This document shows positions 23,517-37,949 of a stretch of DNA of 64,000 nt, in pieces (position 1 is the first letter of the stretch; each line of letters starts with the position of its first letter). A program made the translations under genes and the position numbers. The notes under the pieces were generated by a model. The model ran no database searches. It saw only the letters and a list, made by a program, of their open reading frames with translations, and had not been told where the DNA came from. This stretch comes from Ruegeria sp. 6PALISEP08 (GTDB lineage Bacteria > Pseudomonadota > Alphaproteobacteria > Rhodobacterales > Rhodobacteraceae): NCBI RefSeq assembly GCF_001238295.1, contig NZ_LGXZ01000005.1:62001-126000 (forward strand). Reading direction: 5' to 3'.

Positions 23517-24947
23517 ATGTATCCAGAGCTCAAATTGTTCATAGATGGCACGTGGCGAAAGACCGACCGCGATATCCCGGTGATCAACCCGGCAACCGAA
23601 GAAGAGCTTGGGCGGTTGCCCTGCGCATCGATCAAAGACCTAGACGATGCGCTGGAAGCCGCTGTCAAAGGTTTCCGCGTCTGGAGCCGTACCTCTCCGC
23701 GTGAACGCGCGGATACGATCCTGCGCGCTGCAGCCCTGATGCGGGAACGCATAGACCAGATTGCGCATTCGATGACCCTGGAACATGGCAAACCCTTGAA
23801 GCAAGCCCGCCTTGAAGTGATCCGCGGGGCTGAGTTTTTTGAATGGGATGCGGGTGAGGCCATGCGGACCTATGGACGGATCATCCCGGCTGCTCAGGGT
23901 CACAAATTCGCGGTACATCACCAGCCTATCGGAGTTGTCGCCGCATTTTCGCCGTGGAACTTCCCCATGAGCCAACCGGCTCGGAAAATCGCCGGTGCAT
24001 TGGCTTCGGGTTGTTCAGTAATCCTTAAGGCCGCAGAGGAAACTCCAGCTGGGGCAATGCACATTGCAAAAGCGTTCGAAGATGCGGGATTGCCGCCGGG
24101 TGTCCTGAATTTGGTATTTGGTGAACCAGCCGAAATTTCCGGGTATCTGATCCCGCAAGACCCCGTGCGTCTGGTGGCCTTTACCGGGTCGACAAATGTT
24201 GGGCGGCATCTAACCAAACTTGCATCCCAGCATGACACGCGTGTGTTGATGGAACTGGGTGGGCACGCTCCGGTCATTGTCTGTGAAGACACGGATGTTC
24301 AGGCGGCGGCAATTTCTGGCGCCGTGCGCAAGATGCGCAATGCCGGGCAAGTGTGCACATCCCCAACCCGCTTCTTTGTGCACCAGAGCATCCTTGAGTC
24401 CTACGCCAAAGACTTTGTGCAACGGGCAGCGGCCACAGTTGTCGGCAACGGCTTGGACTCTGAGGTCGAGATGGGCCCGCTGGCCAATGATCGGCGGGTG
24501 CCTGCCCTGACCGAACTGGTCGAGGATGCGCGTGCCAAAGGGGCGATTGTCGCTACGGGAGGCGCGCCCCTGGGCAACCAGGGCTATTTCTATCAGCCGA
24601 CAGTCTTGTTGAACGTTCCTCAGATCGCGCGGATCATGCAGGAAGAACCATTTGGTCCCATTGCAGTCATCAACCCTGTGGCCTCGCTGGACGAGGCAAT
24701 CGATCAGGCAAATTCCGTCCCTTACGGATTGGCAGGATATGCATTTACCAATAGGGCGGATTACATCGACCGTTTGGTCGATGAGGTTGAAGTAGGCAAT
24801 CTGTCTGTCAACACGCTTGAAGCATCGATGCCGGAAACGCCTTTCGGAGGCGTGAAGTCCAGCGGGTCGGGTCGTGAGGGCGGCACCGAGGGGCTTGAGA
24901 ATTACATGACCGTCAAGAACGTCTGGCATTCAGCCCGGATCGTCTGA
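23517..24947 (+). CDS. NAD(P)-dependent aldehyde dehydrogenase
   Basis: A 476-residue enzyme with all ALDH hallmarks: SPWNFPMSQPARK, VAFTGSTNVGRHL, the catalytic Glu in MELGGHAPVIV, the catalytic Cys in NAGQVCTSPTRF and QEEPFGPI. It resembles the succinate-semialdehyde/ketoglutarate-semialdehyde group. ATG 23517 with AAGAGGTG upstream is preferred over 23445. Its place in the cluster suggests oxidation of a semialdehyde arising from ring cleavage, analogous to 2-aminomuconate semialdehyde dehydrogenase, but the substrate is not determined. Confidence 0.88.
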   Translation: MYPELKLFIDGTWRKTDRDIPVINPATEEELGRLPCASIKDLDDALEAAVKGFRVWSRTSPRERADTILRAAALMRERIDQIAHSMTLEHGKPLKQARLEVIRGAEFFEWDAGEAMRTYGRIIPAAQGHKFAVHHQPIGVVAAFSPWNFPMSQPARKIAGALASGCSVILKAAEETPAGAMHIAKAFEDAGLPPGVLNLVFGEPAEISGYLIPQDPVRLVAFTGSTNVGRHLTKLASQHDTRVLMELGGHAPVIVCEDTDVQAAAISGAVRKMRNAGQVCTSPTRFFVHQSILESYAKDFVQRAAATVVGNGLDSEVEMGPLANDRRVPALTELVEDARAKGAIVATGGAPLGNQGYFYQPTVLLNVPQIARIMQEEPFGPIAVINPVASLDEAIDQANSVPYGLAGYAFTNRADYIDRLVDEVEVGNLSVNTLEASMPETPFGGVKSSGSGREGGTEGLENYMTVKNVWHSARIV

Positions 24948-25062: not shown

Positions 25063-27300
25063 ATGGTCTTCAGGCAAAGCCATCCCGCGACGGCAGAGGG
25101 CACCCCTTCTGAGAAATCAATGGCTGCGCCGCTTGGTGTGGCCTTCGCAATGGGTATCGCGCTGGTCATCATCCTGTCGGTATTCCTGTACATGTCGCGG
25201 GAGACCACGATCCGGATCGGAGAAATGCGAAAGGTCTGGCAGGGCTATTCGGTCGAGACCACCCCGCGCGGCTACTGGATATCGGAAATCCGGGGATATT
25301 TCGGCTATGGCGGTTTGATCCACAACTTCAAGAACTACGTCCTGAGGCATGACGCAGAATACTCGCCGACCTTAAAAACCCAGTCGCAGAACCTTCTGAC
25401 AACGATCGAAACTTACCGGAACGCCGCGCCGTCGCTGACGGAACTGGATGCATTGCAGCGGATCGAGCGGGTGGCGCGGGAATACATCGGCAATATCCCC
25501 AAGATCGAAGCGGGCATAGCAGCAGGTCTGCGCGCGGAAGAGATTGATGCGCTGGTGCGGGTGGATGACAGCGACGCACTTGCGGCTCTTTCCACGCTCG
25601 AGACGCTTTGGATTACCGAGCGGGATCAAAGCTTGTCGGACATGGTTCAGGCGTTTTCGGAAGGGGAACAGCTGGTGCGCCGCTTCTCGGTCTTGCTGGT
25701 TGGCCTGATTTTCGTGGTTGGCGTGATTGCGATCCTGACCACGTTGCTGATTTCAAACATTTTGGGTTCCAATCGTCGCTTGAAGGCTGAGTTGGAACTG
25801 CGCGAGCAGGTGGAACTGGCCGAGCGCAAACTTGCGCGGGCCGTCGAACAAAGCCCAGCCTCGATCATCATCACGGACACCGAACTGAAAATAGAATACG
25901 CCAATCGCAAGTTCTTTGATCTCAGCGGATATGAGGCGGAAGAGGTCTATGGGCACACCCCCAGAATGCTGCAATCGGGGCATTCGGGGCAGGGGGTTTA
26001 CGCCGACATAAGGCAGAAATTGCAACTTGGGCAGAACTGGTACGGCGTGTTTCGGAATCTCAGCAAGGACGGCAGCCATTATTGGGTTTCAACTGCGATT
26101 TTCCCGCTGGTGGATCAGTACGGCGAGGTCACGCATTACATTGGGATCGGCGAAGATATCACCGAAACCCGGCGCACACATGAGCAATTTGCCCAAGTGC
26201 AAAAAATGGAAGCTGTGGGGATTCTGGCGGGCTCGGTCGCGCACGACTTTAATAACGTGTTGATGAGCATCATCGGCAATGCCGACCTGATCGAGCTGGA
26301 TTCGGACGGGAACGATGACATTCAGACCTCGGTCAATCATGTCCGTATCGCGGCCCGCCGCGCGCAAGCGTTGGTGCGCAAGATGCTGACCTTCGCGCGT
26401 CAAAGGCCACGCAACCCGCGTCGTGGCGACATGGTCAAAGCCACGCAGGAAGCGTTGGATCTGATCCGGGTATCTGCCCCGCCCAGCGTCCAGACGCGTT
26501 TTGATACAGAGGTCGAAACAGCCTTTTCCGACTTTGACGGCACGCTGTTCTTTCAGACCCTCTTGAACCTGTGTCACAACGCGTTTGAAGCCATGGGCGA
26601 TCAGCCGGGTGAGGTTGTGTTGCGTATCGGCTTGGCCGACAAGGACGCACTTGACGATTTGCCGGACGGGGCCATCGGCGTGATCCGTCTGGACGTCAGT
26701 GATACTGGCCCCGGTATTGCCCAGGACCTGCGTCAGCAGGTGTTCCAACCCTTCTTTTCAACCAAACCTGTTGGCAAAGGCACCGGTTTGGGTCTGACCA
26801 TCGTGCATAACAGCGTCGAGGAATGTCATGGCCGTGTCGCGCTGCAATCGGAACCGGGTCAGGGCACCTGTTTCAGCCTGTTCTATCCGCTGATGCCCGC
26901 ACTCAGTCCGGAAGATCAGGCCGAGGTTGAGGCTGTGGCCGGGGACGAGCATGTCCTTTTGGTGGATGATGACGAGAACATCCTTTACGTGACCCGGCGG
27001 CTGCTGACGCGATACGGTTACAGGGTCGAGGCGTATTCCAATCCGCTGAAAGCGCGCGAGGCGTTTTGTGAAAGCCCGGAAAGCTTTGACATCCTGATCA
27101 GCGACCTGATGATGCCCGGTTTGCGGGGCACGGACCTGATCGAGTCTGTGCGTGCGATCCGGTCGGATTTGCCCGTAATTCTGATCAGCAGCTATTTCGA
27201 CGACGCCGAGGTGTCAGTGACCGGACCTTCCCCCATCATGGTTCAAAAACCGTTGGAGGTTCAGTCACTTGCCCGGATCATACGGTCTCAGATGACCTGA
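25063..27300 (+). CDS. Hybrid sensor histidine kinase with PAS and receiver domains
   Basis: A 745-residue membrane kinase. There is a membrane helix near residues 24-44, a periplasmic helical sensor region (about 45-205), a second helix (about 208-232), a PAS domain (about 255-375), a HisKA H-box SVAHDFNNVL, an ATPase domain (DTGPGIAQDL, GKGTGLGLTIV) and a C-terminal receiver (LLVDDDENIL, phospho-Asp in LISDLMMPG). The sensor helix contains YFGYGGLIHNFKNYVLR, a pattern that I believe recurs in periplasmic four-helix sensors of chemoreceptors and cyclases. GGAGG precedes ATG 25063. It stands 135 bases upstream of the idr-like operon in the same direction and could regulate it. Confidence 0.88.
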   Translation: MVFRQSHPATAEGTPSEKSMAAPLGVAFAMGIALVIILSVFLYMSRETTIRIGEMRKVWQGYSVETTPRGYWISEIRGYFGYGGLIHNFKNYVLRHDAEYSPTLKTQSQNLLTTIETYRNAAPSLTELDALQRIERVAREYIGNIPKIEAGIAAGLRAEEIDALVRVDDSDALAALSTLETLWITERDQSLSDMVQAFSEGEQLVRRFSVLLVGLIFVVGVIAILTTLLISNILGSNRRLKAELELREQVELAERKLARAVEQSPASIIITDTELKIEYANRKFFDLSGYEAEEVYGHTPRMLQSGHSGQGVYADIRQKLQLGQNWYGVFRNLSKDGSHYWVSTAIFPLVDQYGEVTHYIGIGEDITETRRTHEQFAQVQKMEAVGILAGSVAHDFNNVLMSIIGNADLIELDSDGNDDIQTSVNHVRIAARRAQALVRKMLTFARQRPRNPRRGDMVKATQEALDLIRVSAPPSVQTRFDTEVETAFSDFDGTLFFQTLLNLCHNAFEAMGDQPGEVVLRIGLADKDALDDLPDGAIGVIRLDVSDTGPGIAQDLRQQVFQPFFSTKPVGKGTGLGLTIVHNSVEECHGRVALQSEPGQGTCFSLFYPLMPALSPEDQAEVEAVAGDEHVLLVDDDENILYVTRRLLTRYGYRVEAYSNPLKAREAFCESPESFDILISDLMMPGLRGTDLIESVRAIRSDLPVILISSYFDDAEVSVTGPSPIMVQKPLEVQSLARIIRSQMT

Positions 27301-27435
27301 GCTTGTAACATAATTTAACAACTCTTCTTAAAACTTAACACTGGTCAAATCCTCACGAAACAACTGCCCTATAGGATTCGCCATACCGATCCACGGTCAC
27401 CCGGAGAGATCGGAATAGCGAAAAGGGGCTTTTAG
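27301..27435 (+). promoter_or_regulatory. Promoter region of the idr-like operon with a Dnr/FNR-type box
   Basis: At 27335-27348 the sequence TTAACACTGGTCAA has the half-sites TTAAC-N4-GTCAA, identical to the norC box read on the opposite strand. It ends 87 bases before the ATG of the first peroxidase gene. AAAAGGGG at 27421-27428 is the ribosome site. This points to low-oxygen or NO control of the operon through the Dnr-type regulator, as inference. Confidence 0.6.
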
Positions 27436-28542
27436 ATGATGACCAAAGCCAGAACATGGTTCTCGGCGCTATCGACAGTTTCGCTGCTGACGATGGGCGC
27501 TGCGTTCCCGGTTCACCAGGCCCAGGCGGAAGAGTCGGGACCGGTAGAAGCGATAGAGTTCGATCCCGCCAAGGCGGCCCTTGGCAAACGTTTGTTTTTT
27601 GATCCGCGACTGTCCGGCGACACCGAGTTGTCCTGCGCCAGTTGCCACCAGCCGGAAAACGGCTTTACTGACGGACAGGCCTTGTCGGACGCCTATGCCG
27701 GCAGCTTGCATTTCCGCAACGTGCCCACGCTGATCAACAGCGCCAAGCGCGCGGCATGGTTTCATGACGGGCGGATCGGCACCAACCTCAACGATGTCAC
27801 ACGCGAAAGCATCACCGAGACGTATTCCATGAACATGGACATGCGCCTGATGCAGGAACGTATCAAGCAGGACCCGGTCTATGTCGAGATGTTCGAAGCC
27901 GCCGGATTCGGCGAGCCCTCGAACGGCGGCGTGCGAAACGCGATCCCGGAATACTTAAAAACGCTGATCTCGCGCGGGGCACCCTTCGACACTGGCAAGA
28001 TGTCGGATGAGGCCAAAGCGGGCTATGAGCTATTCAATGCCAGCGGGTGTAATTCCTGCCACTCGGGTGAGCGGTTCACGGATGACTTGCCGCATAATAT
28101 CGGTGTCGGCGACAACCCCGAAATCTGGGCGACACCAGAACGTCACATCACCTTCGTGACCATGATGAAATTCCTCGGTGTCGAAAACTACATGAACCTG
28201 CGCGCCGATCCCGGAGCGTATATCCGCACCCACACCGCCGATACGTTCGGCACGTTCATGACCCCTACGCTGCGCGAGCTGACCTTTACTGCGCCGTATA
28301 TGCACAACGGTACGCTGGAAACGCTTGAAGATGTGGTGGCCTTCTACAACACAGGTGGCGGTGACGATGAAAACAAGGATCCGCGCATCAAGCCGCTGAA
28401 CCTGAACGAGACCGAGCAAGCGCAATTGGTGGCTTTCCTCAAGGCGCTGTCCGGCGATCCACTGACCGGCCCCGAATTCGTCGCCGAGGAGGTCGATACC
28501 TTCTACGAGCCGATCGAAAACTGGCAAGACGCGACAAACTGA
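27436..28542 (+). CDS. Di-heme cytochrome c peroxidase family protein (IdrP-like)
   Basis: A 368-residue periplasmic protein with a signal peptide (about 1-31, ending AQA). Two c-type heme sites are present, CASCH at 67-71 and CNSCH at 205-209, in the MauG/CcpA fold (ALGKRLFFDPRLSG, TAPYMHNGTLETLEDVVAFY). Bacterial peroxidases of this family reduce H2O2 with electrons from cytochromes or cupredoxins. In the iodate reductase locus two such proteins, IdrP1 and IdrP2, are thought to remove H2O2 or reactive intermediates released by IdrAB. It is first of four tightly spaced genes. Assignment as P1 or P2 is not possible here. Confidence 0.85.
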   Translation: MMTKARTWFSALSTVSLLTMGAAFPVHQAQAEESGPVEAIEFDPAKAALGKRLFFDPRLSGDTELSCASCHQPENGFTDGQALSDAYAGSLHFRNVPTLINSAKRAAWFHDGRIGTNLNDVTRESITETYSMNMDMRLMQERIKQDPVYVEMFEAAGFGEPSNGGVRNAIPEYLKTLISRGAPFDTGKMSDEAKAGYELFNASGCNSCHSGERFTDDLPHNIGVGDNPEIWATPERHITFVTMMKFLGVENYMNLRADPGAYIRTHTADTFGTFMTPTLRELTFTAPYMHNGTLETLEDVVAFYNTGGGDDENKDPRIKPLNLNETEQAQLVAFLKALSGDPLTGPEFVAEEVDTFYEPIENWQDATN

Positions 28543-28553
28543 GGAGTGGACCC

Positions 28554-29741
28554 ATGAAAGACCTTTCGTCTTATCTCAAAGGCACAATCGCCACCGCTGC
28601 CCTGTTTGCCGTTCTTGGCTCGCAGGCCGCTGCGGAAACCAGTATGGAGATTGAGGCCGGTATCGGCGGGCCAGATCCCGATCCTGATGCGCCACTGGTG
28701 GCTCTGGGCAAGCCTCCAATTCCGCTGGACAACCCGCAAACCGAAGCCAAGATTGAGCTTGGCAAGATGCTGTTCTTCGATCCGCGTCTGGGTGGCAACC
28801 CATCGACGCCTTGTTCCGCCTGCCACCTGCCGGATGTCGGCTGGGACGTCGAGGCCCCGATCTCGTTCGGCTATCCCGGTACGACCCACTGGCGCAACAG
28901 CCAGACCATCGTGAATTCAGCCTATTACGGCAAACTGTTCTGGGCGGGCTCATCCAAGAGCCTTGAAAGCCAGGCCAAATCCGCTGCGGGCGGTGCGGTG
29001 GCCGGGAACGGCGAGGCCGACATGATGGAGGCTCGTCTGGCCTTCGTTCCCGAATATGTCGAACGGTTCAACGACGTCTTTGGGGATCATTGGCCGCGCA
29101 TCGGCAACGCATGGCGGGCCATTGCAGCGTTTGAACGGACCATCGTTCAGACCGGCACGCCCTTCGACAACTATCTGCGCGGGGACGATGCGGCACTGAC
29201 CGAGGAACAGAAACGCGGGCTGGAGTTGTTCACCGGCAAGGCGCAGTGTTCCGAATGCCACAACGGTGCGCTGCTGTCGGATGAGAAGTACTACAACACC
29301 GGCGTGCCCGCCTATGACGGTTGGCATGATGATGGTCTGGCACAGGTCACCTTCCGGTACGAACTTTATGCCAAAGGCTCGACCGAAGAGATGTATCGCC
29401 ACACTAAGGACGACCCCGGTTTCTATTTCCGCACCAAGGAAAAGGCCGACAAGGGCAAGTTCCGCACGCCAAGCCTGCGCTACACCCTTTATACCGAACC
29501 CTACATGCACAACGGCATGCTGGAGACGCTCGAGGATGTGGTCGAATTCTACAACCAGGGCGGCGGCGAGAACGAGTTCTCAGCGAATAAATCCCAGCTG
29601 ATCCAACCCCTTGGTCTGAATGATCAAGAAAAGACGGATCTGGTGGCCTTCCTGAAATCCCTGTCCGGCGAGGAACTTCTGATCGAAGAACCCGACCTGC
29701 CGGATTATCAGCCGCTTCCTGCGGTTGCAGCAGAGGAGTAA
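28554..29741 (+). CDS. Second di-heme cytochrome c peroxidase family protein (IdrP-like)
   Basis: A 395-residue protein with signal peptide (about 1-27, ending AAA) and heme motifs CSACH at 87-91 and CSECH at 232-236. It keeps ELGKMLFFDPRLGG and TEPYMHNGMLETLEDVVEFY. It is clearly a paralogue of the upstream gene but diverged, with an extended N terminus (GGPDPDPDAPLVALGKPP) and a longer insertion before the C-terminal heme ligand. It starts 11 bases after the first peroxidase gene. Two adjacent MauG-type peroxidases with a Rieske protein and an AioA-like subunit are the composition of the idr locus. Confidence 0.85.
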   Translation: MKDLSSYLKGTIATAALFAVLGSQAAAETSMEIEAGIGGPDPDPDAPLVALGKPPIPLDNPQTEAKIELGKMLFFDPRLGGNPSTPCSACHLPDVGWDVEAPISFGYPGTTHWRNSQTIVNSAYYGKLFWAGSSKSLESQAKSAAGGAVAGNGEADMMEARLAFVPEYVERFNDVFGDHWPRIGNAWRAIAAFERTIVQTGTPFDNYLRGDDAALTEEQKRGLELFTGKAQCSECHNGALLSDEKYYNTGVPAYDGWHDDGLAQVTFRYELYAKGSTEEMYRHTKDDPGFYFRTKEKADKGKFRTPSLRYTLYTEPYMHNGMLETLEDVVEFYNQGGGENEFSANKSQLIQPLGLNDQEKTDLVAFLKSLSGEELLIEEPDLPDYQPLPAVAAEE

Positions 29742-29746
29742 GCGTC

Positions 29747-30316
29747 ATGACTGATCATAACGCAAACGGATGCAGTTGTTCGGGTGAAGCCAAGAAAGCC
29801 TGCACCGTGAACCGCCGCCAATTCCTGTTCGCCTCGGGTGCCACAACCTTTGCCGTGATGGTGGCCATGCCCACCCGCCACGGTCAGGCCGAACAGGTTC
29901 CTGCCCTTGTGTCCACCTATCCGCGCAAGCTGATCGGCAAACTCTCTGAGTTGGAACAGGATGTTCCGGTCGAATTCTACTACCCGGATGAGGGCGATTA
30001 TTCGGACTCGATCCTGGTCAAGACCGGCGTGGAAAGTGGGGGTGGCATCGGTCCGCAAAAGGACGTGGTGGCGTTCAACCTGACGTGTACGCATCAGGGC
30101 GGATCGCTTTACGACACGTACAAGGGGGAACATAAGGTGCTGGGCCCATGCCCGCTACACCTGTCGACCTACGACGTGACTCGTCACGGCATTCTGGTCT
30201 CCGGTCAGGCGTATCAGTCGCTGCCGCAAGTCCTTCTGGAACTCGATGGTGACGATATCTACGCCGTCGGCATGTTCGGCCTGATCTACGGCCGCTACGA
30301 CAACCTCATTGCATAA
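29747..30316 (+). CDS. Rieske [2Fe-2S] small subunit, AioB/IdrB-like
   Basis: A 189-residue protein with a twin-arginine signal (NRRQFLF, Arg23-Arg24, then a hydrophobic stretch), so it is exported folded, probably carrying the large subunit along, since that has no signal of its own. The Rieske ligands are Cys114-Thr-His116 and Cys135-Pro-Leu-His138. The cysteine pair that forms the disulfide in many Rieske proteins is absent (Gly and Leu at those places), which should lower the cluster potential. It starts five bases after the second peroxidase gene and passes electrons to or from the molybdopterin subunit. Confidence 0.88.
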   Translation: MTDHNANGCSCSGEAKKACTVNRRQFLFASGATTFAVMVAMPTRHGQAEQVPALVSTYPRKLIGKLSELEQDVPVEFYYPDEGDYSDSILVKTGVESGGGIGPQKDVVAFNLTCTHQGGSLYDTYKGEHKVLGPCPLHLSTYDVTRHGILVSGQAYQSLPQVLLELDGDDIYAVGMFGLIYGRYDNLIA

Positions 30317-30330
30317 AGGGAAACGGAATC

Positions 30331-33012
30331 ATGGCAACCCCGTATTACGTACCCGAAACCAACGTCCCGCTGCCACCCAAGGGCGCCGAGGTCATCTCGA
30401 CCGCCTGCGACTATTGCATCGTGGCCTGTGGTTACAAAGTCTACCGCTGGCCCGTGACGGCCAAATCCGGTGGGCCCGGCGCGGATGAAAACGCCTTTGG
30501 CGAGGATTTCCCTGTCGCACCGCTGGGCGCATGGGTGGCCCCGAACCAGCACAATATCGTGCTGCACAAAGGCCTGCCGCACCACGTCGTGATTATCCCC
30601 GACAAGGACAACAAAACTGTCAACACCGACGGCGACAGCTCCTTGCGGGGCGGGTGTATCGCGCAGAAATGCTATAACCCGCAGACGCCCACACGCGACC
30701 GTCTGAAAACGCCGTTGATGCGGATTTATGGCACCTTGATGCCGGTTCCGTGGGATCTGGCGCTGGATGTGGCGGCTGAGGTGGGCAATCATGTCATCGC
30801 TAAACATGGCACCAATGCCTACGGCGTAAAAACCTTTAGCTATCAATATATCGAGAACACCTATGCGATCTCGAAATACGCGCTGCGCCATATCAACACC
30901 GCCAACTTCACCTTCCACGACACGCCGTCCGATGTGACCTCGACCCCCGGTTTCCGGGATGCGGGCTTTGATAATTTCGGCCCCTCCTATGAGGACTGGC
31001 GTGATGCGGAAACCCTTCTGGTCTGCGGCACCGACCCATATGAGACCAAGACCATCCTCTATACCCAGTGGATGATGAAGGGGATGCAGAACGGTCAGAA
31101 AGAGATCTATCTGATCCCGCGCCGCTCGGCCGGTGTGGCCCATGCGGAAAAGATGGGTGGCCTGCATATCGACGTTTTGCCCGGTACTGACCTGCTGGTC
31201 GTTAACGCCATTGCCCGCGTCATTGTGGAAAATGGCTGGGAAGACAGCGATTGGATCAAGAAATGGGTCAACAACAAGTGGGAAAGCTCGTCTGGCTTCG
31301 GTCAGGGCACCCGTAACACGCCATGGCAGTGGCGCACGACCTGGGGCAAGTTCCAGACCAAGGGTTTCGAGGACTGGAAAGAGTGGCTGCTGGCGCAGGA
31401 CGAATTCGCGCCTGAGACTGCCGCGGCCGCGGCCGAGATCGACGTGCAGAAGATCTATACGGCTGCTGAATGGCTCGCCAAACCCAAGGATGACGGCTCG
31501 CGCCCGAAAACCTCGATTATGATCGAAAAAGGGTTCTACTGGTCCAATAACACCGGCAACACACAGGCGATTTCCGCACTGGGCATCATCTGTGGTTGTG
31601 GTGGACGTCCAGGTCAGGTCATCGGTCGGGCCGGTGGTCACCAGCGGGGCGGCGTGAAAGGCGGGAAATACCCGCGCAACAAATCGCCCGAGAAACTGCC
31701 GGGTCGCCGTCGTCGCGCCATGGATACCGACCGGTATCTGATCGCGGGTCATACCCGTATGGCCCACGTGATCGGCACCACCTGGATTCAGTCCATGTGT
31801 GGATCGCAGCAGTTGGCCGACAAGTTTGAGGAACTGACCGTCCGCAACCCGCACCAGATCGCCTCTTTCGACAAAAAAGAAATGATCGACACGCTAAAGG
31901 CCCGCACCGACAGCGGCGGCATGGTGGTGATCAATCAGGACATCTACCTACAAGACCCGATCGGCAACCGTTACGCCGACATTGTGTTCCCAGCCGCAAC
32001 CTGGGGCGAAGAGGACTTCCTGCGGGCCAACGGTGAACGCCGCCTGCGCCTGTACCAGAAGTTCTATGATGCGCCCGGTTCGGCGAAACCAGATTGGTGG
32101 ATCATCGCCCAACTTGCCACGCGGATGGGCTTTGACGGGTTCGATTGGCAGAACTCGAATGAGGTCGCGGAGGAGGCCGTGCGCTTTACCCGCGGGTCGC
32201 GCAAGGATTTCCACGCGGTCCATCGTCTGGCAAAGGCCGAAGGCAAAACCCTGCATGCCAAGGTTCGTGAATTCGGCACCGACGGTGTGCAGTGCCCGGT
32301 CATGCTGGATGCTGACGGAGTCACGCTGATTGAGACCAAGCGCTTGCACGACACAACCCGCAAACTGCCCGATACTGGTGCTGCCGGCGCGGATGTGTTC
32401 AATAAAAAGCTGACGCACTTCAACAGCCAGACCGGCAAGTGCAACATTCAGAAATCGCCTTGGGGTCTGTTCTCGGACTATTGGGAATGGCTCAGCCCGA
32501 ACAAGGACGAAGGCGAGCTCTGGGCCACATCTGGACGGATCAACGAACGCTGGCAGTCCGGTTTCGACGATCGTCGCCGCCCATATATCGTTCAGCGCTG
32601 GCCGGAAAATTGGGTCGAAATTCACCCTGACGATGCGGCCGAACGCGGCATCGAAAGCGGCGACTATGTGATGGTCTATTCGGAACGCGTTCCGGGCAAC
32701 AAACACACGCTGCTGGGTGTGGAAGGCGATGACTTCCAGTTCTCGAAGCTGATGGAGAACGGGCATATCGAGCTGACCAAAGCGGCGATCACCGCCGTGG
32801 CGATGGTTACGCCTGCCATCAAGAAAAGCGTGGTTTACATGGACTTCCTGCACATGCAGCAGCCTGCAAATGCGCTTGAGGGGCGGATCGTCGACTGGAT
32901 CAGTGGCAACTACAACTACAAGATGGGCGTTGCCAAGGTCCGCAAGCTTGGGCCGAGCCCCTACAAGACCTCGTTCCGCACGATGTCCTTCGCACCGCGC
33001 GACATCGCCTGA
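30331..33012 (+). CDS. Molybdopterin oxidoreductase large subunit, arsenite oxidase/iodate reductase type (IdrA-like)
   Basis: An 893-residue bis-MGD enzyme of the DMSO reductase family. The N terminus shows Cys26-X2-Cys29-X3-Cys33 (CDYCIVAC), then Ser104 exactly 70 residues after Cys33, the [3Fe-4S] pattern of AioA-type enzymes, which have Ser where others have a fourth Cys. Further AioA-like stretches are RAGGHQRGGVKGGKYP and NGERRLRLYQKFYDAPG. No export signal; it should ride with the Rieske Tat signal. AioA normally comes as aioBA without peroxidases. Two upstream di-heme peroxidases make an IdrA-type iodate reductase more likely than arsenite oxidase. The substrate cannot be proven by sequence. 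Confidence 0.8.
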   Translation: MATPYYVPETNVPLPPKGAEVISTACDYCIVACGYKVYRWPVTAKSGGPGADENAFGEDFPVAPLGAWVAPNQHNIVLHKGLPHHVVIIPDKDNKTVNTDGDSSLRGGCIAQKCYNPQTPTRDRLKTPLMRIYGTLMPVPWDLALDVAAEVGNHVIAKHGTNAYGVKTFSYQYIENTYAISKYALRHINTANFTFHDTPSDVTSTPGFRDAGFDNFGPSYEDWRDAETLLVCGTDPYETKTILYTQWMMKGMQNGQKEIYLIPRRSAGVAHAEKMGGLHIDVLPGTDLLVVNAIARVIVENGWEDSDWIKKWVNNKWESSSGFGQGTRNTPWQWRTTWGKFQTKGFEDWKEWLLAQDEFAPETAAAAAEIDVQKIYTAAEWLAKPKDDGSRPKTSIMIEKGFYWSNNTGNTQAISALGIICGCGGRPGQVIGRAGGHQRGGVKGGKYPRNKSPEKLPGRRRRAMDTDRYLIAGHTRMAHVIGTTWIQSMCGSQQLADKFEELTVRNPHQIASFDKKEMIDTLKARTDSGGMVVINQDIYLQDPIGNRYADIVFPAATWGEEDFLRANGERRLRLYQKFYDAPGSAKPDWWIIAQLATRMGFDGFDWQNSNEVAEEAVRFTRGSRKDFHAVHRLAKAEGKTLHAKVREFGTDGVQCPVMLDADGVTLIETKRLHDTTRKLPDTGAAGADVFNKKLTHFNSQTGKCNIQKSPWGLFSDYWEWLSPNKDEGELWATSGRINERWQSGFDDRRRPYIVQRWPENWVEIHPDDAAERGIESGDYVMVYSERVPGNKHTLLGVEGDDFQFSKLMENGHIELTKAAITAVAMVTPAIKKSVVYMDFLHMQQPANALEGRIVDWISGNYNYKMGVAKVRKLGPSPYKTSFRTMSFAPRDIA

Positions 33013-33177
33013 TGACAACTTTCCGAGGGGCGGACGCCATGCCGCCCCTCGGGACGGGCCCCACTGCAGAAGGGGCTCTGAACCGGTCCCCCGGTTCACA
33101 TGGAAGGCAGGTATCGGTTGGGAAATCTGCCTTCCACTTTCACCCAACCCGCCAACCACAAACATGGCAGATCCGAT
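33013..33177 (+). repeat. Three tandem hairpins between idrA-like and HEAT-repeat genes
   Basis: Three perfect inverted repeats follow each other: CCGAGGGGCGG (33023-33033) with 33042-33052; TGAACCGG (33079-33086) with 33091-33098; and TGGAAGGCAG (33101-33110) with 33127-33136. None is followed by a T-run. They lie just after the stop of the large subunit and before the HEAT gene, fitting an RNA-stabilising or attenuating spacer, or a protein-binding region. Confidence 0.75.
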
Positions 33178-35385
33178 ATGAACATCCATTCCGATACTTC
33201 CCTGCGTGACGAGGCCACCAGCCTGTTTTCCGAATACGCAAAATCCGACTTTGACGTGATCCGCTTGCGCGCCGTTCAGGCCCTGACTGCAATTGGTGCG
33301 GGAGACAATTCGGCACTGGTTGAGGCACTGCTGGACGACGATGAGGACGTCCGACAGGACGCCGCGCAGGCGCTTGGTGTTTTGGGTGTAAAAGAGGCCG
33401 CGCCGCAGTTGCTTGAAAACCTGATCCACGATCCCTGTGGCGAGGTGAAACTTGCCTGCGTGACCTCATTGGCCGCGTTGAAAGCCGAGGATGCCGCCCC
33501 CTATCTGCGCACTCTCGTGACCGGTCGCGGGGATGAGATGACGTGGGACGAGGACGAGTTGCATCAGGACGAGTGGGATGACTGGCTCGACACGCAGATT
33601 GCCGCAATCAAAGCGCTGGGTCAGATGGGTGACACTGCGGCGATTGAGCCCATCGTCATGGCCCTGATGGACGAAGACGGGCAAGAGTTGGGCGATGTGG
33701 CCTGCGAAGCTTTAGGCTGGATCGGGGAACCCTCGGTCCCGACATTGGGCGTATTCACCCAATCTTCGAACCGTCGCCTGCGGCACCGTGCGCTGCGGAC
33801 GCTGGCCACGATTGGCGGGGCCGAAGCCGAAGCGATTTTGCGCAAGGCTCTTTCCGACAAGGAAGGTGAAGTTCGTCTGATCGCCTATGAGGCGCTGATG
33901 CCGAACGACCCCGCACTTGTCGAGCGGGCGCTGAACGACGCGGTGGAAGAGATTCGCATAGCAGCTCTGGGGCAGTCCGGTCTTTCGGAGCCCGAGCTTT
34001 TGGACCGGATGATGCGCGACCCCGGGGCGAAAGTTCAACTGGCTCTGATCGAGCGGCTGAACCGCAGCCAGCCTATCGAGGATCAGGACGACTTGCGCTG
34101 GCAGGTACTGGACTTTCTTGCGACCGGTCAACAGCCCGAAGTGTCTGCTCAAGCACTTGGCCTGTTGGCCGCCTTGGCCCCCGAGCTTGTGTCCGACCGT
34201 TTGAACGCCGTGTTCTCGATCAACGCCGACGACCTCAAGGGTGAGCGCCTGCAATGGGCTATCGTCGACGCTCTTGCCTCCTCGCCTTTGCGCGAAGCGA
34301 CGGAGTGGTTGCAGCGTGCCTGTCGCTCACCCTTCCGGTCGGTTCGGCTCAAGGCTATGGCGTCGCTGGCAATGATTGTCACCGATACAGATCGCCCGCA
34401 TGTGAACCAGCAGCAGGGCCGGGAGCTGCTTTTGTCTTTTGCGCTGGCTCCGATGCCATTGGCCGTCGACGTCGAACAAAAAGAAGAGGCAATACAAACG
34501 GATTTCGCCGCTCTGGAAGAGGCGGGCCTGGATGTGTCCGAAGGGGGCGAGAATGGCCCGACCTCCAGCCTTGGGGCTATTCTTGGTCATGACGCCATCG
34601 CTGCCGAGATGACGCAAGAGGCCGAAGAGAACGATGTTCAACCCTTAACCCCGCGCGAACAGGCACTGTTGGCCAAGGCAACCCGTCACCCAAAACGCCG
34701 CCGTGTCGCGCTGGATGACGATGCAGAAGCGCTGGAACGTGAAACGCGTATGTCAGCCATCCGGTTGCTGGGTGAAGTGCGGGGAATGCAGATTATGCTG
34801 GCCCAGATCGCCAATGACCCCGAAGCGGATATCGCTGCACAGGCTGTTTCCGCTCTGTCCGTGTCGCTGGCCCGCCACAGGTCCGAGTTGAGCGATGAGC
34901 AATTGATTGATCTGATCGCTTCAGGTGTGTCGCATACTGATTCAAATCTTGCGCTTCAGGCTCTTAAGCTATTGCAAACTACCGATCTGCCGCCACAGGA
35001 CGCTTTGCGTGGCAAGTTGCGCTTGATGGTGAAAACCGGGGATACCGCATTCCGGATCGACGCCATGCAGATCCTGACCCAATGGGACGGAAAGCCGAAC
35101 GTTGCGCGCAGCCTGCTGGACGACATCTCAGCCCCGGTGCGGCAGGCCGCAATGCGCCTGCTGTCGAGCGTCGCCCCCGATCAGGCCGCAGCAGCCATCG
35201 TGCCCTTCCTGTTGGACAATCCCGAGCAGCGAATCGTGACCTATGTCAATGACAGTACCTCTGCGGTGGTGTCCATTGGGCGCGAACTGCTGGTTGGATT
35301 GCGTGACGAGAACCGCCGCGCGCAATGGCCGGTGATGATCAGCGCATTGGCTGACCTGTTGGGGAGACCATCTCGGGCGGCTTAA
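33178..35385 (+). CDS. HEAT-repeat protein linked to the molybdoenzyme operon
   Basis: A 735-residue cytoplasmic protein made of repeated helical pairs such as DEDVRQDAAQALGVLGVKEAA and GEVRLIAYEALMPNDPALV, the short PBS-lyase type of HEAT repeat. N-terminal and C-terminal repeat blocks flank an acidic linker (about residues 420-510). ATG 33178 is chosen because the upstream part of the frame overlaps the hairpins. HEAT proteins of this kind are binding scaffolds or chaperones. Position between the molybdopterin subunit and the cupredoxin/moeA genes suggests help with assembly or cofactor loading of the large subunit, which is inference. Codon use is like the neighbours. Confidence 0.75.
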   Translation: MNIHSDTSLRDEATSLFSEYAKSDFDVIRLRAVQALTAIGAGDNSALVEALLDDDEDVRQDAAQALGVLGVKEAAPQLLENLIHDPCGEVKLACVTSLAALKAEDAAPYLRTLVTGRGDEMTWDEDELHQDEWDDWLDTQIAAIKALGQMGDTAAIEPIVMALMDEDGQELGDVACEALGWIGEPSVPTLGVFTQSSNRRLRHRALRTLATIGGAEAEAILRKALSDKEGEVRLIAYEALMPNDPALVERALNDAVEEIRIAALGQSGLSEPELLDRMMRDPGAKVQLALIERLNRSQPIEDQDDLRWQVLDFLATGQQPEVSAQALGLLAALAPELVSDRLNAVFSINADDLKGERLQWAIVDALASSPLREATEWLQRACRSPFRSVRLKAMASLAMIVTDTDRPHVNQQQGRELLLSFALAPMPLAVDVEQKEEAIQTDFAALEEAGLDVSEGGENGPTSSLGAILGHDAIAAEMTQEAEENDVQPLTPREQALLAKATRHPKRRRVALDDDAEALERETRMSAIRLLGEVRGMQIMLAQIANDPEADIAAQAVSALSVSLARHRSELSDEQLIDLIASGVSHTDSNLALQALKLLQTTDLPPQDALRGKLRLMVKTGDTAFRIDAMQILTQWDGKPNVARSLLDDISAPVRQAAMRLLSSVAPDQAAAAIVPFLLDNPEQRIVTYVNDSTSAVVSIGRELLVGLRDENRRAQWPVMISALADLLGRPSRAA

Positions 35386-35399
35386 ACCCGGAGGGACAG

Positions 35400-35885
35400 A
35401 TGAGGACTTCGCTGAAATTGAGTGCAGCGTTTCTTGTGGGGACGATGATTGTTGCCCCCGCAGTACAGGCCGAGGACTTACCCGAAGTCGCTGTAGTGCA
35501 TCAGATTATCGACCTCAATGCTGACACTCCGGCACATGCCTTCCGTTTTGAGCCGAAATTCCTGCAGGTTCCCGCCGGGGCCACGGTACGTTTCAAAGGC
35601 TCAACCGGGCGGCATACAGTTACAGCAATTCCACGGATGATCCCCGTCGGCGCGCGTGTATTCGAAATTCGTGGCAAGCCCGAGCTGGACCTGACCTTCG
35701 AGAAAGAAGGCGTCTACGGTATACGCTGTCGCGTTCATGGTCGCCACGGCATGGTGATGCTGCTGGTGGTTGGCGATCCAAATTCGAACTTGGAAGAAGC
35801 CAAGGCCTATTTGCCCAAGCTGGGCGAGGCAGAACAGGCCGGTTTCGAAGAACTGTTTGCATATATGGAGGCCCAAAATGGCTGA
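35400..35885 (+). CDS. Pseudoazurin-like type 1 copper protein
   Basis: A 161-residue periplasmic cupredoxin with a signal peptide (about 1-24, ending VQA). The type 1 copper ligands are complete: His72 (GRHTV), Cys110, His113 and Met118 in CRVHGRHGM, which has the C-X2-H-X4-M spacing of pseudoazurin. A C-terminal helical tail follows VVGD, also as in pseudoazurin. It probably shuttles electrons between the respiratory chain and the Rieske/molybdopterin pair or the di-heme peroxidases, and it could also serve NorC. It starts 14 bases after the HEAT gene and overlaps moeA. Confidence 0.88.
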   Translation: MRTSLKLSAAFLVGTMIVAPAVQAEDLPEVAVVHQIIDLNADTPAHAFRFEPKFLQVPAGATVRFKGSTGRHTVTAIPRMIPVGARVFEIRGKPELDLTFEKEGVYGIRCRVHGRHGMVMLLVVGDPNSNLEEAKAYLPKLGEAEQAGFEELFAYMEAQNG

Positions 35886-37122
35886 TGGATGCGCCTGTGA
35901 CCGCCACGCTCATATGTATCTGACTGTGGATGACGCTCTGCGGCGCGGCCTGTCAATTGCTGCTCCACTTACCGACCGCGAGACTTTGCCGCTGACGCAG
36001 GCAATAGGTCGGGTATTGGCAGAGGATTGTACCAGCAAGGTCGAAATGCCCGCCTTCGACAATTCGGCGATGGACGGCTACGCAGTACGGACAATTGATT
36101 TGATCGACGGCCCGCTGTTCGAACTTCCTGTGGCGGGTCGCATCGCGGCGGGGGACAGCGCTGAGCATGATGCACCTGCAGGAAGTGCGCTGCGGATATT
36201 TACCGGCGCGCCGGTTCCCACGGACTTCGATGCGGTTGTGATTCAGGAAGACTGCGACGTCACCCTTGACGGAATCCGGTTCAGCCGTCTCCCTAAAGCT
36301 GGTCAGCATATTCGCCTTGCGGGCGAAGATTTGCGCGCAGGCGCCCCGATCCTGCGGCGTGGATGCGAGATCGGGCCGCGAGAGGTCGCCGCGTTAGCCT
36401 CGGCCGGGTATGGTGAGGTCGCAGTTTACCGCAAGCTGAAGGTCACAATTTTTTCCACTGGTAGCGAGTTGCGCCAACCGGGCGAGGCTTTGGGTCCAGG
36501 GCAGATCTATAACTCCAACCGTTACATGTTGCTTGCGTTGTTGCAGAAGCCGTGGATTGAGTTGACTGACAGCGGCCCGGTCAAGGATGATCCGGACGTT
36601 TTGGAACAAGTTCTGCGCGAAGCGTGTGAAAGCTCGGATCTGATCGTTACGACCGGTGGTGTATCCGTTGGTGATGAAGACCACATGCCGCGCCTGATTG
36701 CCGAGATCGGTGGTCAGACAGACGTTATGAAAGTTGCAATGAAACCGGGCAAACCCATCATGTTCGGACGCTATGGACGCGCACTTTATGTAGGGCTGCC
36801 GGGCAACCCGGTGTCGGCCTATGTGACTTGGCAGATCATCGGGTCGCAAATGATGGCGCGTCGCGCCGGATTGCAATACAATCCGCAGGTAACAGTCCAG
36901 GCGGTTCTGGCAGAACCTTTGCGTCGCCGTGCCGGCCGCCAGGAATACCGCCCGGTTCAGATCGAGGGCACGACCCCGGATGGTCGCCCGAAGTTGCGGC
37001 TGATGGCTCCGTCTTACAGCGGCCGTGTGGCTCTTCTGGCTCAGGCGGAAGGGTTGGCGATCATTCCGGCCGAGGTTGAAGAACTGCCTGAAGGTCACGT
37101 TCTGGACCTGCTGCCAGTCTGA
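35878..37122 (+). CDS. moeA: Molybdopterin molybdenumtransferase
   Basis: A 414-residue MoeA that inserts molybdate into adenylylated molybdopterin. The signatures are PAFDNSAMDGYAV, TTGGVSVGDEDHM, and KPGKPIMFG followed by GLPGNPVSAYV. The start at 35878 overlaps the cupredoxin stop by eight bases with GGAGG upstream. The N-terminal extension ADGCACDRHAHMY with Cys and His residues is unusual. Its position suggests a dedicated copy for the idr-like enzyme in addition to any housekeeping moeA. Confidence 0.93.
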   Translation: MADGCACDRHAHMYLTVDDALRRGLSIAAPLTDRETLPLTQAIGRVLAEDCTSKVEMPAFDNSAMDGYAVRTIDLIDGPLFELPVAGRIAAGDSAEHDAPAGSALRIFTGAPVPTDFDAVVIQEDCDVTLDGIRFSRLPKAGQHIRLAGEDLRAGAPILRRGCEIGPREVAALASAGYGEVAVYRKLKVTIFSTGSELRQPGEALGPGQIYNSNRYMLLALLQKPWIELTDSGPVKDDPDVLEQVLREACESSDLIVTTGGVSVGDEDHMPRLIAEIGGQTDVMKVAMKPGKPIMFGRYGRALYVGLPGNPVSAYVTWQIIGSQMMARRAGLQYNPQVTVQAVLAEPLRRRAGRQEYRPVQIEGTTPDGRPKLRLMAPSYSGRVALLAQAEGLAIIPAEVEELPEGHVLDLLPV

Positions 37123-37214
37123 ATGCCACAGCATGACCGTTGTGCGCGCTTGCCAGTTTCAAGCGCGCGCGGATACAAGACTAATAAGCCAGTTCATTCT
37201 GCCGCCAGAGATTG

Positions 37215-37949
37215 ATGACAGCCAAAGATCATATCCTTGTCGTTGATGACGACCCGCAAATCACTTCCTTCCTGCAGCGCTATCTTGAAAAGCAGGAATG
37301 TGACGTGACCTGTGTGGCGGATGGAAACGCCATGGATGTTGTCCTGGAAACGGCGAACGTAGACTTGATCCTGCTGGATATCGGGTTGCCTGGCCGAAAC
37401 GGATTTGACATCACGCGCGAATTGCGGATGCAGTCGAATATTCCGATCATCGTGCTCTCAGGCCGGGATGAGATCTTTGACCGGGTTGTCGGCCTGGAGT
37501 TCGGAGCCGATGATTACATCACCAAACCCTTTGAGGCTCGTGAGGTTCTGGCCCGCATCCGAACTGTGCTGCGCCGAAGCCGGGCAGACGACGCAGCGAC
37601 TGCCGCAAACGGATCCGAAGCCGCGCAGATTGTGTTTGGAGATTGGGCGCTAAACCCGCATGAGCGAACGTTGACAGCCAAGAGCAGTGGACTGCAAACG
37701 CCCCTGACCACAACTGAATTTGACGTTCTGCACGCTTTTGTCACCAACCCGCATATCGTGTTTTCCCGCGATCAATTGCTGGATAAGGCGCGCGGCCGTG
37801 AAACCGTGGTTGGGGACCGAACCATCGACGTGCATGTCTTGCGCCTGCGCAAGAAGATCGAACCCGACCCGAGTGAGCCGACTTTTATCAAAACCGTTCA
37901 CGGTATTGGATACTGCTTTGCGGCAAACGTGCGTAAGAGCGGCGGGTAA
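37215..37949 (+). CDS. OmpR/TorR-type response regulator
   Basis: A 244-residue two-domain regulator: a receiver with Asp10-Asp12 and phospho-acceptor Asp55 (LILLDIGLPGRNG), Lys in ITKPFEAREVLARI, and a winged-helix output domain (LTTTEFDVLHAFV, RTIDVHVLRLRKKIE). A TTG start at 37212 directly precedes ATG 37215. No ordinary cognate kinase is adjacent; the hybrid kinase at 25063, upstream of the idr-like genes, is the nearest candidate partner. The receiver resembles TorR-like regulators of alternative electron acceptors. Confidence 0.88.
   Translation: MTAKDHILVVDDDPQITSFLQRYLEKQECDVTCVADGNAMDVVLETANVDLILLDIGLPGRNGFDITRELRMQSNIPIIVLSGRDEIFDRVVGLEFGADDYITKPFEAREVLARIRTVLRRSRADDAATAANGSEAAQIVFGDWALNPHERTLTAKSSGLQTPLTTTEFDVLHAFVTNPHIVFSRDQLLDKARGRETVVGDRTIDVHVLRLRKKIEPDPSEPTFIKTVHGIGYCFAANVRKSGG

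Follow-up and report, generated by a model that had tools for sequence, protein, structure and literature searches.

The idr-type operon and its surroundings

The window considered here, 64,000 nucleotides of Ruegeria sp. 6PALISEP08 (family Rhodobacteraceae; contig NZ_LGXZ01000005.1, positions 62,001 to 126,000 of the forward strand), contains an operon with the gene content of iodate reductase (idr) loci: two genes for di-heme peroxidase-like proteins, followed by idrB, which encodes a Rieske subunit, and idrA, which encodes a molybdopterin large subunit. A gene for a HEAT-repeat protein lies directly behind idrA. A sequence-only reading had proposed the four core genes (27436 to 33012) as a candidate iodate reductase operon in the order peroxidase, peroxidase, idrB, idrA (P-P-B-A), with gaps of 5 to 14 bases and a C-X2-C-X3-C-X70-S motif in the large subunit. 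Open reading frames (ORFs) and motif checks agreed with this description and showed intact cofactor motifs; all four genes are on the plus strand, separated by 11, 5, and 14 bases. The locus nevertheless runs past that range on both sides, to a sensor kinase gene upstream and from the HEAT gene to a regulator gene downstream. The features are as follows (window coordinates; aa, amino acids).

25063 to 27300, plus strand: PAS hybrid sensor kinase, 745 aa (Pfam PAS, HisKA, HATPase_c, Response_reg)
27305 to 27320, plus strand: putative regulator site, direct repeat GTAACA-N4-TTAACA (match to KTHACA-N4-KTHACA)
27436 to 28542, plus strand: first di-heme peroxidase-like gene (idrP), 368 aa (Pfam CCP_MauG, CXXCH motifs)
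28554 to 29741, plus strand: second di-heme peroxidase-like gene (idrP), 395 aa (Pfam CCP_MauG, CXXCH motifs)
29747 to 30316, plus strand: idrB, Rieske subunit with a twin-arginine motif, 189 aa (TIGR02694, motifs)
30331 to 33012, plus strand: idrA, molybdopterin large subunit, 893 aa (TIGR02693, motifs, tree)
33013 to 33177, plus strand: four strong stem-loops in the idrA-HEAT interval (folding energy versus shuffles)
33178 to 35385, plus strand: HEAT-repeat protein, 735 aa, alternative start at 33100 (Pfam HEAT_2)
35400 to 35885, plus strand: pseudoazurin-like cupredoxin (Pfam Copper-bind; C-X2-H-X4-M at residue 110)
35878 to 37122, plus strand: MoeA paralogue, 414 aa (Pfam MoeA_N, MoCF_biosynth, MoeA_C)
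37212 to 37949, plus strand: OmpR-type response regulator, 245 aa, TTG start with an ATG three bases on (Pfam Response_reg, Trans_reg_C)

In each idrP product the CXXCH motif occurs twice (at residues 67 and 205 in the first, 87 and 232 in the second). Both match Pfam CCP_MauG (E values of 1e-39 and 9e-41, respectively), but neither reached the NCBIfam cut-off for MauG or for MbnH. Sec-type signal sequences were judged by eye to be present on both. IdrB has the sequence RRQF at residue 23 and the motif CTH...CPLH, and scored 106.7 bits with TIGR02694 (cut-off, 95.65). In IdrA, C26, C29, C33, and S104 form the motif C-X2-C-X3-C-X70-S, and the score with TIGR02693 was 398.5 bits (cut-off, 359.05). 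The occurrence of these four genes together with their motifs is far beyond chance. NCBI equivalog models label idrB and idrA (29747 to 33012) as arsenate reductase (azurin), above cut-off.

Among the downstream genes, the cupredoxin scored 24.4 bits with Copper-bind (cut-off, 21.2) and 71 bits with the pseudoazurin model TIGR02375, below the cut-off of 109.85. The start of the MoeA paralogue gene and the end of the cupredoxin gene share 8 bases, and two further MoeA homologues in the same genome are 37 and 38% identical to it. The P-P-B-A order is not special, as it equals that of idr loci in published descriptions (PMC8801600, PMC10989891), which rules it out as an unusual gene order.

Placement of IdrA

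A tree was built by a quick method from 59 of 101 distinct proteins, after thinning at 93% identity and removal of rows shorter than 800 aa. In this tree 54 IdrA-type rows were separated from 5 rows of the arsenite oxidase AioA, which lay on long branches, with a Shimodaira-Hasegawa-like approximate likelihood ratio test (SH-aLRT) value of 100. The IdrA side was identified by synteny, and Azonexus stands in for the group of cultured iodate respirers by inference. The window protein grouped with IdrA and not inside the AioA clade, the position that the sequence-only reading had fixed beforehand as the outcome speaking against it. Together with the two peroxidase genes that precede idrBA, this bears out the assignment of the operon to the idr type rather than to aioBA. 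A peroxidase pair in synteny with idrB and idrA is also what characterizes idrABP1P2 loci in published work (PMC8692401).

Within the IdrA side, clade I comprises 46 rows with the HEAT gene, the window IdrA included, and clade II comprises six rows (Azonexus, Thiothrix, three Rhodobacteraceae, and G082, from another class). A Vibrio row and G074, also from another class, joined near the base of clade I; the tree positions of loci L024 and L116 are unsure. The rows nearest to the window IdrA were Pseudovibrio flavus and Cohaesibacter, and not other Rhodobacteraceae. Because these nearest rows lie outside the family, transfer of idrA would fit.

His196, Arg433, and His437 are kept across clade I, clade II, and AioA. 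The position that is Glu in 5/5 AioA rows is Ser in 46/46 clade I rows (Ser204 in the window protein) and Asp in 6/6 clade II rows. We take these four positions to be the arsenite-binding residues of AioA; no literature support for the AioA active-site residues was found in open-licence papers. An arsenite oxidase, as the names of the NCBI models above cut-off for both idrA and idrB would have it, is highly improbable. It was rejected because the large subunit lies outside the AioA clade and Ser204 stands where AioA has Glu; moreover, the aio locus of NT-26 has aioX and no peroxidases within the stretch examined.

It is also conceivable that clade I enzymes reduce a related oxyanion or oxidant, with a main substrate other than iodate. 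Clade I differs from clade II at positions 204 (Ser versus Asp) and 209 (Arg versus Asp), has its own partner set, and is placed here without any tested member, all of which would fit such a change of substrate. It seems unlikely, however, because 57 alignment positions are common to all IdrA rows of both clades and occur in no AioA row. These include most of an insert at 321 to 338 that the two IdrA clades have in common and for which the AioA rows show mainly gaps. Both clades also retain P-P-B-A, and the same sensor type is found in Rhodobacteraceae of both.

These comparisons suggest that iodate is quite likely the substrate of the clade I enzyme, and that the window operon is, with fair probability, the idr operon of a distinct IdrA branch, to judge from its content, order, motifs, placement, and fixed HEAT gene. 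The core is a further idr member of a kind already known, and the HEAT-bearing branch is a new variant. The sequence-only reading rightly left the substrate open between iodate and a related oxyanion, as this tree branch is perhaps without a tested member.

Three observations weigh against placing the window enzyme with the iodate reductases in this way. The active-site residue is not alike between the clades, with Ser in clade I but Asp in clade II. The window IdrA shares only 50% identity with the Azonexus clade II protein. In addition, the IdrA of the clade II locus L118 has a predicted mass of 99.4 kDa, the value published for the predicted mass of Roseovarius azorensis IdrA, and clade I proteins range from about 99.5 to 100.6 kDa; this equality is a weak indication that the marine strains tested so far could belong to clade II.

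Linkage of the HEAT gene to idrA

Loci were surveyed in one scan of genome contigs in which 491 relatives matched and the best 80 were kept; their idrA is at least 76% identical, and many are cut by contig ends. In 80/80 of these best 80 of 491 loci, idrA is followed immediately, on its own strand, by an ORF of one HEAT family, as counted with a family hidden Markov model (HMM) built from hits in the same loci. A first tblastn pass had found the HEAT gene in 78/80 loci, and the HMM added the other two, which are cut by contig ends. The contigs of L072 and L090 stop after 69 and 73 HEAT residues, and further loci are cut too. Identity to the window protein drops to 21%. The other genes turned up less often in the same 80 loci, many of them contig-cut: kinase, 27 loci; regulator, 28; MoeA, 23; and cupredoxin, 25. 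In L051:12769-15143 (Labrenzia sp. DG1229), the HEAT gene is split into two ORFs beside an intact idrA, through a sequencing error or as a broken gene.

Genome-wide counts gave a similar picture. Among 61 relatives, the 15 idrA carriers were the 15 with a long HEAT match, and the sixteenth match was a 55-residue remnant (G029). Among 345 genomes of the family, idrA was found in 18 at the cut-off used and HEAT in 16, uncorrected for kinship, which the Fisher tests also ignore. In all 16 HEAT carriers idrA is directly upstream, as a fragment at the contig start in G473. Three idrA carriers lack HEAT: G602 and G618, both clade II, and G542. HEAT was not found in six clade II loci, and the genomes of G082 and G256 (clade II) also gave no match; G074 has a weak HEAT match only, elsewhere in its genome. 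On the tree, one gain of HEAT suffices (SH-aLRT, 99). A HEAT gene behind idrA thus marks clade I versus clade II. No mention of it was found in the open-licence literature searched (including PMC8692401 and PMC10149662).

Beside the idr operon of Vibrio sp. THAF190c, an ORF on the minus strand (L024:4028-6061) encodes a divergent protein that gave a weak HEAT match and has a similar tryptophan-rich acidic stretch. The family HMM found nothing in it at an E value of 0.001, and hhalign gave an E value of 0.0023 with a probability of 12.5%. It may be distantly related to the HEAT protein.

Possible role of the HEAT protein

The predicted structure of the HEAT protein (predicted local distance difference test score, 88.5) consists of two solenoid arms and a low-confidence linker. 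Fourteen columns are invariant in 36 HEAT sequences, including W123, W133, W136, Q140, and, in the linker, S463. No NCBIfam model matched at its cut-off, Pfam gave HEAT models only, and no sequence match to the NarJ/TorD chaperone families was found (Pfam, NCBIfam; E value, 0.001).

The HEAT protein has no evident export signal, as judged by eye, and Aio operons carry no chaperone gene according to a review (PMC10609526). Because of this, and because it is encoded right behind idrA, the HEAT protein could fill the chaperone gap. It may be a cytoplasmic maturation factor for IdrA, a possibility to which we give somewhat less than an even chance. A fuller version, marginally less probable, is that it is a dedicated maturation factor with a fold unrelated to NarJ/TorD, which would have arisen once with clade I and stayed locked behind idrA while drifting, its dose set by the stem-loops. 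The likeness to NarJ/TorD chaperones is at most one of working: in both cases the gene adjoins that of the catalytic subunit and the product is without an export signal by eye, whereas the window protein is a HEAT solenoid of 735 aa.

The HEAT protein might instead be a scaffold or regulator for another pathway partner, which comes close to an even chance. The partners bound by HEAT solenoids are diverse, and the short conserved motif sits in the low-confidence linker. A fold search against solved structures returned generic scaffolds only, which agrees with a scaffold and counts against a maturation factor. A role for another partner is harder to reconcile with the position of HEAT right behind idrA in every surveyed locus, against 23 to 28 loci for the kinase, regulator, MoeA, and cupredoxin genes. 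The maturation-factor reading has further difficulties. HEAT is dispensable for IdrA in general, since clade II loci and G074 do without it, and the clade I idrA of G542 breaks off about 120 bases from the contig end in a genome without a HEAT match.

Regulation and stem-loops

The direct repeat at 27305 is the sole KTHACA-N4-KTHACA match in the window. This motif, which was both derived and counted on one set of loci, precedes idrP in 22/34 non-redundant loci with the regulator and in 1/47 without it; it was never found on the opposite strand at these loci, and the shuffle mean was 0.03 loci. Its absence from 12/34 regulator-bearing loci, three clade II loci included, is a point against its being the regulator site. 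The stricter pattern GTHACA-N4-TTHACA occurs twice in this genome, once here, and the reversed control pattern once. The other strict match (G000:C10:50875-50890, L186) may mark a second target or may be due to chance.

The sensor region of the kinase was found in 8/61 relatives, all 8 with idrA, and was missing from 7/15 idrA carriers. The same sensor type adjoins clade II idrA in three Rhodobacteraceae loci (L118, L156, and L157). Because it stands beside idrA of both clades, these data suggest one inducer for clade I and clade II idr in Rhodobacteraceae.

The region from 33000 to 33190 folds to -84.5 kcal/mol (mean of shuffles, -61.1; z, -5.4). Three of the four stem-loops are kept in an alignment of 14 Ruegeria sequences, with two-sided changes in only 2 of 31 pairs, and the array is single copy in the genome. 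At other clade I loci the idrA-HEAT interval often folds strongly with unrelated sequence, and some loci have no gap. The array is reminiscent of the hairpins with a stabilising role in the Rhodobacter puf operon.

Distribution and loss in Ruegeria

The distribution of idrA in Ruegeria is patchy: it was found in 14/37 genomes of the genus, the window genome included. Fifteen loci have 97 to 98% idrA identity, of which 14 are from Ruegeria and 1 is from an alphaproteobacterial metagenome-assembled genome. In Ruegeria sp. AD91A (L121, NZ_CP031947.1), the match to the window along the flank ends at 24947 and resumes at 35191, with no match to the kinase, the idr genes, most of HEAT, or the regulator. 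A C-terminal HEAT remnant adjoins the MoeA paralogue in the idrA-less Ruegeria loci L121, L176, L178, L179, and L180; the breakpoints lie close together (residues about 667 to 682), from one shared deletion or repeated deletions. Because of the gap between matching flanks in AD91A and the HEAT remnants beside MoeA, the island seems to have been lost as a block.

The MoeA paralogue was considered as a gene tied only to idr. This was weakened, as 5 of its 19 carriers among the 61 relatives, all five of them Ruegeria, are without idrA; 4/5 of these carry a HEAT remnant beside MoeA. Neighbor-gene clusters 9, 13, 18, 10, and 20 recur as a set behind HEAT in L055, L057, L061, L084, L094, and L106, and some appear cytochrome-like by eye.

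Comparison with known systems

The idrABP1P2 islands of Pseudomonas sp. SCT, Denitromonas sp. IR-12, Azoarcus sp. DN11, and Aromatoleum sp. TC-10 share with the window two di-heme peroxidase genes followed by idrB and idrA, a Tat-type IdrB, an IdrA without a signal, and a patchy, apparently transferred distribution. The window differs in having a HEAT gene after idrA. According to published accounts (PMC8801600, PMC10149662), these islands have cytochrome c551 and moaA where the window has a cupredoxin and MoeA, and DN11 has a sigma-54-type pair where the window has an OmpR-type regulator. The Azonexus locus, whose IdrA lies on a separate branch from that of the window, contains moaA and a cytochrome gene along with a sigma-54-type pair, and resembles the loci of cultured respirers in the same accounts. 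Clade II neighborhoods resemble those published for cultured iodate respirers.

Roseovarius azorensis, Notoacmeibacter marinus, and Aliiroseovarius sediminilitoris are likewise marine Alphaproteobacteria with idrABP1P2 (PMC11445184). AioBA of NT-26 has the same subunit families, and a small electron carrier (cytochrome) gene and a MoeA-type gene lie behind aioA; unlike the window, it has no peroxidases or HEAT in the stretch examined, and Glu where the window has Ser.

Proposed mechanism and implications

In published work, deletion of idrA in strain IR-12 abolishes iodate respiration, and IR-12 IdrA is without a signal peptide and is thought to be exported with IdrB (PMC8692401); marine aerobes with idr reduce iodate at low oxygen, with the genes induced by iodate (PMC11445184). 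In Ruegeria sp. 6PALISEP08, iodate and little oxygen would lead the kinase and the OmpR-type regulator to switch the operon on via the putative site at 27305, and the HEAT protein may act in the cytoplasm on IdrA maturation. In the periplasm, electrons would pass to the Rieske subunit, probably from the cupredoxin, which could be the donor here, as has been proposed for cytochrome c551 elsewhere, then to molybdenum and to iodate. The two di-heme proteins would remove oxidants formed en route, as has been proposed in published work. The stem-loops may hold the catalytic proteins in excess over HEAT, the cupredoxin, and MoeA.

Surface-seawater iodide is a main ozone sink, marine aerobes may make part of it, and few idr carriers have been tested. 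NCBI models give idrA and idrB the name arsenate reductase (azurin), so it is likely that some probable iodate reducers carry an arsenic-metabolism annotation. Clade I, which was found mostly in Alphaproteobacteria, has a partner gene of its own, and part of the branch also has its own regulator pair and putative binding site. The HEAT gene behind idrA offers an easy way to distinguish the IdrA branches, and it opens to test how Aio/Idr enzymes gain their cofactors before export.

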